Source: Deltaproteobacteria bacterium
GTDB lineage: Bacteria > Myxococcota_A > UBA9042 > DTJE01
NCBI GenBank assembly: GCA_029555025.1
Contig: JAKPTZ010000030.1
Span: 1-64,000, forward strand
Reading direction: 5' to 3'
DNA: 64,000 nucleotides
Position 1 is the first letter of the stretch. Every line of letters begins with the position of its first letter. Positions 36,608 through 41,610 of this stretch are shown piece by piece. The notes under the pieces are model-generated. The model saw only the letters and a program-made list of their open reading frames with translations, was not told the origin of the DNA and made no database searches. The translations under genes and the position numbers were made by a program.

Positions 36608-37381
36608 TCAATAGACCGGGCAGAAGGTGGGGTATTCGGCGATTGCCGGGCAGATGACTGCCGGAACGCCGTAGTCCTGTCCCGGGAAGCAAGGCGGATC
36701 GGTGATCGTGTCGTCGGCCGACGGTCTTACCAGGCATCCGAAGCAGACCTTGATCGGGAACGCCAGTTCGTTCGAATAGATGATTTCGCCCGCCTGGTTC
36801 TCTGCCATGAGCATGACATACACGTTGATGTCGGCACCGTATTCCTCGCCCGCGTGAGTCCTCATGACCTCGCCGATCAGGTTGCCCAGCTCCGTCTTGA
36901 TTACCTCGACGCCGACCGTTCCTTCCTGTTCAGGTTCGGCCCCGGCCGCGACCGTGTGCTGGACGCCGTCGGTTGAGAGGATGAAAAGCTGTTCTTCGGT
37001 CATCCGGCCCGTGGCCTGAAGTTCGTCACCGAGCTGCCCAAGGTCGATCCATACCTTGGCGCCACTGATGTTCAGGTAGTTCGTTTCCACATTGCCGGAT
37101 TCGATCCCTTCCCCGCTGATGGTGGTGCTTTTCATCATCATGTTGCGGAATCGCGGGAACAGGAAGTAGTTGTTGGTCAGCATCGAATCCAGGATGCCGA
37201 ACGCCAGTACCGCCTGGGCCCGCTGGCCGGGCTGGATGATGCACTGCGAACGCGGCGTGATGGCCTGGGCATCATAGATGAACAGGGCCCGCGGGTTCGG
37301 CACCTCGCACGTTACGAGCAGGGGCAGGGACGCTGCCAGTACGCCGACAGCAAGCAGTCTGCCGAAAATGGACTTCTTCAT
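36608..37381 (-). CDS. Predicted lipoprotein, translationally coupled to pilQ
   Basis: A 257-residue protein of no recognised family. The signal peptide ends LPLLVTC at about residue 25, a plausible lipobox, followed by a mature beta-rich domain and a C-terminus with several cysteines (VCFGC, PPC, VIC, FC). Its ATG overlaps the pilQ stop by four bases with GAGAGGTG upstream. The operon place suggests a pilus-secretin accessory lipoprotein in the manner of PilP or a pilotin, but no sequence match to either is visible. Confidence 0.8.
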   Translation of the reverse strand: MKKSIFGRLLAVGVLAASLPLLVTCEVPNPRALFIYDAQAITPRSQCIIQPGQRAQAVLAFGILDSMLTNNYFLFPRFRNMMMKSTTISGEGIESGNVETNYLNISGAKVWIDLGQLGDELQATGRMTEEQLFILSTDGVQHTVAAGAEPEQEGTVGVEVIKTELGNLIGEVMRTHAGEEYGADINVYVMLMAENQAGEIIYSNELAFPIKVCFGCLVRPSADDTITDPPCFPGQDYGVPAVICPAIAEYPTFCPVY

Positions 37382-40300: not shown

Positions 40301-41610
40301 GCGGCAAGCCGGATTGTTGCCGCGTCTGCCACCTCGCCGGCCTTCTCAACCCTGGCCCGCAGTTCCTTCAGTTCGGATTCGCGCGATTCCATCTGCTCGC
40401 GCAGTTTCCTCGCCTCGGCCGTCTCGACCGCCTTGCGGGCGGACTTCAGGTTATCGACTTCGGCGCGGAGAGCCGCCACTTCCTGCTCAGCCGCCTCGCG
40501 TCGCTGGGCAATCGCCCTCAGCCGCAGTTCTTCGGTCTTCAGGCGGCCTGTCGCCTCGCTCCAGGCCTTCGATGCCTCCTGGCTGTCCCTGGTCAGCTTC
40601 TCAAGCTTCTGCTTTTCGGCGACCACGCTTGCCTGAAGCCTTTCGGCCTCCCTGGCAAGGTCGGATGCCTTGGTGGCCTCGGTTCTGGCCAGGTCGATCT
40701 TTGTCCTGAGGGCCGCAATTTCCTTTTCGCCCGAAGCCTTCTCAGCCCGGGCCTTTTCCAGCCTGGCCTCAATTTCCGACACCTTGGCGCTTACGTTCTG
40801 ATTGCGGGCCTGCGCCAGTTGCGCGACCAGCTTCTCCTCGTTTTCCCGGCTCCTGCGCAGATCATCAAGCTTCGCGGCCTCGAGCCTGGCCAGTTCGGTA
40901 AGCTGGCCCCTGGTCTTTTCCTCGGCAATCCGAGCCTTCCTGGTCTCCTCGAGCCTGGTCTTTTCCTCCGCGGCGAGTCTGCCCGCTTCCCGGGCCTCCA
41001 CCTCGGCGGCCTTCTTGAGTTCCTCGGCCTTCGCCCTCAGGCGCTCGGCCTCAAGGCGACTCTGTTCCTCGGTCAGGCGCAGCTTGGAATCGCGTTCGCG
41101 AGTCTCGCGAATCTTTTCAAGCAGTTCCTTCTCGCGCGCCAGTTCCGCCCGGATTTTATCGACCTGCTCCGCCAGAACCTTGCCGTCTTCCTGCGAAGGT
41201 CGGCGACCGGCACCGTCGATGCGTATCACAATCCCGCGGTCAATCGCCTTGATGTCGTATGCGGCGCTTTGCCTCAGGCCGAGGATGATTCGGCCCACCG
41301 GTGTCCCGTTGCTCTTGATTTGCATCGTCGCGACCCGGTCAAGAACACCGTTGTCAACCATGACACCGTCAGCCACCTTGCTGATGTCGCCCTGCGGGAC
41401 ATCGACGAAAAGGCGAACCGGCTCCTCCAGCTTGAAGACGCTGAAGGTCGGAGTCCTTTCCGCAGCGATGGTTATGACGGTCTCCTCGGGCTCCTCCCTG
41501 ACGGTTATCCCGGAAATCCGGTTGGCATCGTCAGGCGTGGCGGTTGCCACCCCCGATATCAGAATAAAAGCTGTGGCCGACAGCAGCCCTGTAAGTTTCG
41601 CGCTTGACAT
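37378..41610 (-). CDS. pilQ: Type IV pilus secretin PilQ with giant coiled-coil insertion
   Basis: Outer-membrane channel through which the type IV pilus passes. From the ATG at 41610 (GGTGGAGG upstream) it is 1410 residues against about 700-900 in typical PilQ. In order: signal peptide (1-25); AMIN domain (about 32-133); predicted coiled coil (about 145-820) rich in Glu, Ala, Arg, Lys and Leu; second AMIN domain (about 826-925); Pro-rich linker; STN domain (about 985-1060); secretin N domain (about 1085-1145); and the secretin pore domain ending [31 protein letters not shown]-like sequence. AMIN domains bind peptidoglycan. pilM-N-O-P are not upstream. Confidence 0.92.
   Translation of the reverse strand: [1410 protein letters not shown]

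Follow-up and report, generated by a model that had tools for sequence, protein, structure and literature searches.

The reverse strand of the window, by which we mean the whole 64,000-nucleotide stretch of DNA that was analysed, carries a long pilQ gene whose stop is overlapped by a downstream gene for a lipoprotein-like protein (Table 1). The ATG of pilQ is preceded by the Shine-Dalgarno-like sequence AGGTGGAGG, and the earliest possible start is a TTG 24 bases upstream of it. In a profile search, residues 988-1405 of the product matched TIGR02515 (IV_pilus_PilQ) with 419 bits against a cut-off of 284.35, which, together with the Secretin and Secretin_N domains, bears out the original prediction that the gene encodes PilQ; judged by these matches, the 1,410-residue protein is a genuine type IVa pilus secretin. 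From the N terminus the order is signal peptide, AMIN, a coil of ∼680 residues, AMIN, N0/N1 and secretin. The two AMIN domains that had been proposed were likewise recovered, with both PF11741 matches above the cut-off and the fold reproduced by AlphaFold2, and the only significant Foldseek matches to a model containing both domains were AMIN-bearing proteins (PilQ, 3jc8 and 4aqz; AmiC, 4bin). Both are predicted peptidoglycan binders. With 661 residues separating the mapped AMIN domains, the tandem AMIN-AMIN architecture of PilQ is not found here.

Table 1. Features of the pilQ locus (window coordinates)
Feature	Coordinates	Strand	Basis and remarks
Lipoprotein-like gene linked to pilQ, 257 aa	36608..37381	-	Overlaps the pilQ stop, downstream; conserved neighbor
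pilQ CDS, 1,410 aa	37378..41610	-	Open frame, ATG at 41610, stop at 37378 (stop included)
Signal peptide, Sec-type, residues 1-24	41539..41610	-	Sequence: Lys, hydrophobic core, A-T-A cleavage motif
AMIN domain 1	41224..41508	-	PF11741, E 3.8e-5, above cut-off; β-sandwich in AlphaFold2
Coiled coil, residues 144-825, proline-free	39136..41181	-	COILS-type score, heptad periodicity, dN/dS 0.26 against L006, AlphaFold2 helices
Helix break, residues 495-500, around SDG	40111..40128	-	AlphaFold2; Gly conserved in L006
Helix break, residues 679-683, around ASG	39562..39576	-	AlphaFold2 and coil score
AMIN domain 2	38884..39129	-	PF11741, E 1.2e-10, above cut-off
Pro/Ala/Ser-rich flexible linker, AMIN2 to secretin ring	38662..38808	-	Sequence
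N0 domain (STN/gspD_N0-like)	38440..38628	-	Weak Pfam match (STN just below cut-off); inside the TIGR02515 match
N1/N3-type domain (Secretin_N)	38170..38355	-	Pfam
Secretin pore domain	37399..37869	-	PF00263, E 6.7e-49

This is the sole PilQ of the source genome, and the remaining secretin matches all fall in one 913-residue GspD-like frame (contig C81), which rules out a second, normal PilQ. The genome also encodes PilM, PilN, PilO and PilP, as well as PilT, the retraction ATPase. The pilMNOP cluster lies away from the pilQ contig, on contig C3 (L149:8100-11346, G000), and PilT (470.6 bits) is found on contig C144 together with a neighboring ATPase, so that pilus retraction is likely. PilN, PilO and PilP are of ordinary size (294, 235 and 203 residues). 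Across the class, PilO frames of 235-347 residues do not track coils of 538-2,009 residues (Spearman 0.29, p 0.15); PilO was used here because the PilP profile was matched in only 20 of the 52 class genomes.

A search with the pilotin Tgl profile TIGR02521 returned TPR matches only, all below the cut-off, and the 257-residue lipoprotein-like protein has no Pfam or NCBIfam match. In well over half of the loci, coil-bearing and coil-less alike, a homologue comes after pilQ or after pilQ-aroK-aroB; since it neighbors coil-less pilQ as well, the protein was rejected as a coil-specific partner. The family is conserved and pilus-linked, with a Cys-rich C-terminal motif (GCL...PC.PGQD). In the related family f3 pilO lies directly upstream of pilQ, and in f1 pilQ adjoins a hisC-like gene. 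The window also encodes two large secreted proteins (27830-30997, plus strand; 31011-33692, minus strand) with Cys-Asp repeats of the CDDGNxCTxDxC type.

A heptad coiled coil under purifying selection

The original prediction had placed a coiled coil of about 675 residues between the AMIN domains; its position and its coil nature stand, but its measured length is 682 residues. By a COILS-type 28-residue score, whose exact probabilities are approximate, residues 144-825 form a single coiled-coil stretch in which 94% of positions have p >0.5, compared with a mean of 43% and at most 58% in shuffles of the same residues. Composition hence accounts for part of the coil signal, not the whole. Hydrophobic power at period 3.5 (6.2) and at period 3.6 (12.0) is in each case above that of all 300 shuffles, there is no proline, and 56% of a positions are Leu, Ile, Val or Met. 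A single alpha helix, which is E/K/R-rich and has no hydrophobic seam, is ruled out by the Leu content of 10% and by the heptad seam. With a heptad a/d pattern, no proline and a signal beyond composition, the segment has the properties of a canonical coiled coil.

The coil is under purifying selection. Against a same-genus relative (L006) its dN/dS is 0.26, with indels of only 2 residues; in genus g9 (L074, L078 and L075), where the coil reaches ∼1,480 residues, it is 0.09-0.10, close to the AMIN regions, and in the L081/L083 pair it is 0.17, all values being taken from pairs with measurable dS, with some other, saturated pairs left out. In 12 non-overlapping pairs, 24 of the 70 coil indels of at least 5 residues were multiples of 7 (10 expected, p 2e-5), compared with 1 of 11 indels outside the coil, a comparison in which the clean close pairs weigh most because gap placement in aligned heptad repeats may itself favor multiples of seven. 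Length changes in genus g9 mostly amount to 14, 28 or 56 residues, with one further event of 204 or combinations thereof. A preference for multiples of seven is what a true heptad coiled coil should show. Expansion of a tandem DNA repeat was ruled out for this pilQ, in which no significant repeat was found. The coils of three relatives (L004, L100 and L109) contain tandem protein repeats of 25, 103 and 21 residues, respectively, and one of 39 was also found; these suggest growth by unit duplication in some relatives.

The AlphaFold2 model (16 sequences, mean pLDDT 73, pTM 0.30; model residue 1 is protein residue 24) connects the two AMIN β-sandwiches by four long helices over 679 residues, at 117-248, 251-471, 478-655 and 661-795 in the numbering of the modeled stretch, with breaks at protein residues 272, 495-500 and 679-683. 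In the model of the shortest relative (L105), a GG break separates two helices of 111 and 50 residues. No central turn is conserved across the families, the worst helix positions showing no clustering at the coil center, and a hairpin of the whole coil is thus unsupported. Coil indels are not mirrored about a midpoint either, and these two observations favor parallel pairing of the helices. A weak helix spot recurs ∼50-110 residues before the coil end in f1, f3 and f41, with the motifs LAGGA in f41 (e.g. L105), DDYL-type in f3 (e.g. L074) and AGSSEDR in the window near 39430.

Distribution among the Myxococcota

Among PilQ frames drawn from about 80 Myxococcota loci, the coil lies between two AMIN domains in all 45 complete coil-bearing proteins, which come from 14 family-level groups, all Myxococcota. 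In these 45 it begins shortly behind AMIN1 and stops just short of AMIN2, its length has a median of 722 residues and runs from 153 (L105) to 2,009 (L093), and the coils together contain one cysteine and almost no proline. Far from being peculiar to this gene, the coil occurs in all complete PilQs that could be mapped from the class of the source organism and in f19, f30, f41, f42, f46 and f59 of other classes. Within f1 alone it spans 538-1,368 residues, and this more than twofold change in one family implies that no fixed reach is required. One class genome (L090, G133:C37) has a TAA inside the pilQ frame, either a frame error or a pseudogene. The f19 family is very likely Bradymonadales, which would very likely carry a short version with coils of 260-415 residues. 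These predatory bacteria are in culture, and type IV pili have been seen on them (PMC7460792), so that a test system that can be grown is probably available.

The coil is absent from f14, f17, f18, f21, f22, f33, f34, f37, f47, f51 and f60; of the three f45 rows, two lack it, and L110, in which a 97-residue coil precedes both mapped AMIN domains, was left uncounted. Most coil-less PilQs in which two AMIN domains could be mapped have 19-42 residues between them, and the divergent proteins of f17, f21, f37, f47 and f51 have 76-178, once 364, again without a coil. A scan of 84,980 species for close relatives of this protein, made with short patterns and covering other phyla unsystematically, returned five loci only, all of them taxonomically Myxococcota.

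A tree built on the secretin part alone needs no more than one gain and one loss to explain the coil distribution. It rejects a clade that unites all coil rows (p-AU 5e-5), since f46 and f59 adjoin the coil-less f18, f22, f34, f45 and f60. These five look like a group resembling classical myxobacteria, and on this tree the coil seems to have been lost in the lineage holding the well-studied myxobacteria; independent gains in f46 and f59, which take one step more than gain and loss, are possible. If this reading of the tree is true, the coil-less model myxobacteria represent a derived state, and textbook pilus architecture may therefore not represent the phylum.

Orientation of the coil and its possible role

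Retraction forces of type IV pili exceed 100 pN, and the question arises how the machine resists retraction without tearing from the envelope, to which AMIN anchoring is a proposed answer. The AMIN domains of PilQ bind peptidoglycan in Pseudomonas aeruginosa, and anchoring against the retraction force has been proposed earlier (PMC5285504); in P. aeruginosa and Myxococcus xanthus they are required for PilQ localization and polar placement (PMC5285504, PMC10653833). In the proteins described here the natural distance between the two anchors ranges from about 20 to 2,000 residues with the rest of the machine much unchanged, which makes the anchoring idea testable.

As an extended continuous helix, 682 residues would measure ∼100 nm and 2,009 residues ∼300 nm, whereas the Gram-negative periplasm is usually ∼30 nm and that of Thermus, with its longer alignment protein PilW, ∼70 nm (PMC13039148). 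Given that PilN, PilO and PilP have the usual size and that the length of PilO is unlinked to the coil, the height of the machine appears unchanged; this speaks against a coil bridging a wider periplasm, and the coil either folds or, if extended, has to run along the wall. The original prediction suggested a cage around the pilus; arms that follow the wall are likelier than such a cage standing upright, since the ordinary size of PilN, PilO and PilP argues against a coil spanning the gap between inner and outer membrane.

We favor a reading to which we give about an even chance, in which an ordinary retractile type IVa machine would have gained a long heptad coil in the short inter-AMIN linker of its PilQ. 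Each subunit of the ring would extend a helix to pair with those of neighboring subunits, probably in parallel orientation, and the periplasm being too shallow for upright coils, the arms would lie along the peptidoglycan and carry AMIN1 tens to hundreds of nanometers from the pore, with AMIN2 remaining near the ring. They may distribute the retraction load across a broad area of wall and help to hold the machine in place, thereby anchoring it. Counting against such arms are the pTM of 0.30, the breaks at 272, 495-500 and 679-683, which would permit folding back, and the wide spread of coil length within f1. More tentatively, and with some doubt, we suggest that a dozen or more parallel coiled-coil cables of 20 to 300 nm run along the wall and tie each pore to distant peptidoglycan in several Myxococcota lineages, a motor suspension that would be ancestral to these lineages and would have disappeared from the one to which the laboratory myxobacteria belong.

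Were the coil instead folded back as antiparallel hairpins, it would form a compact helical collar or cage at the ring with AMIN1 beside AMIN2, and both AMIN domains would sit as in an ordinary PilQ. Two AlphaFold2 breaks, one 132 residues after the start of the coil and one 135 before its end, and the SDG break at 0.51 of the coil fit such folding, but there is no central turn across families, the GG break of f41 sits close to the C-terminal end (111 + 50 residues in the model of L105, 0.86-0.89 of the coil in three longer relatives) and the indels are unmirrored between the two arms, and we regard a collar as unlikely. It is quite improbable, in our view, that the arms link neighboring pilus machines into polar arrays, coil to coil or via shared AMIN1 sites: AMIN domains do target PilQ to the wall at poles and septa (PMC10653833, PMC5285504), and extended arms of 100-300 nm exceed the machine width of 15-20 nm given for M. 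xanthus, but clustering is without evidence in these organisms, many of which are known from metagenome-assembled genomes alone.

A passive origin, in which replication slippage stretched a low-complexity helical linker with no specific role, would account for a length so variable between relatives and for the tandem repeats of 25, 103, 21 or 39 residues in some of them. Against this stand a coil dN/dS of 0.09-0.26, which in one genus is nearly at the level of the AMIN regions, the presence of the coil in every complete class PilQ mapped, the near absence of proline and cysteine and the preference of indels for heptads, which make it distinctly unlikely. The concern that an assembly or annotation error had joined two adjacent genes, raised with the original prediction, has some basis in that most of these genomes are draft assemblies. 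It is nevertheless so improbable that it can practically be dismissed, as the frame is open, the coil is under purifying selection and the same architecture is found again in dozens of independent assemblies, among them the single-contig chromosomes G008 and G151, a recurrence that excludes fusion by assembly error.

Relation to known systems

PilQ with an inter-AMIN coiled coil of 150 to 2,000 residues, as found in many Myxococcota, is a variant of a known secretin that is apparently undescribed in the open-access literature. It would function as a PilQ whose first anchor has been displaced. As the original prediction anticipated, no secretin with such an insertion, and no coil in a PilQ, was found described in that literature, most subscription journals being outside the coverage. 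Pilus proteins of the FimV/TspA type resemble the protein studied here in combining a peptidoglycan-binding domain with coiled-coil segments and in serving the type IV pilus, but they are separate inner-membrane LysM proteins outside the secretin. Deinococcus SlpA likewise has a long coiled coil linking outer membrane and cell wall but is an S-layer-type connector that is no secretin and has no AMIN domains (PMC9388160). P. aeruginosa PilQ shares two AMIN domains, N0-N1 and the secretin, and its AMIN domains bind peptidoglycan (PMC5285504), but they stand in tandem and a coil is lacking; among other solved PilQs of this type, the chains are 714-731 residues long. M. xanthus PilQ differs in having three AMIN domains on flexible linkers, with no coil described there (PMC10653833), but shares with the coil-bearing PilQ its phylum and the type IVa pilus and is, by sequence, the best structural relative (PDB 3jc8/3jc9, 901 residues), with a match that covers only residues 795-1407, that is, AMIN2, the N domains and the secretin.
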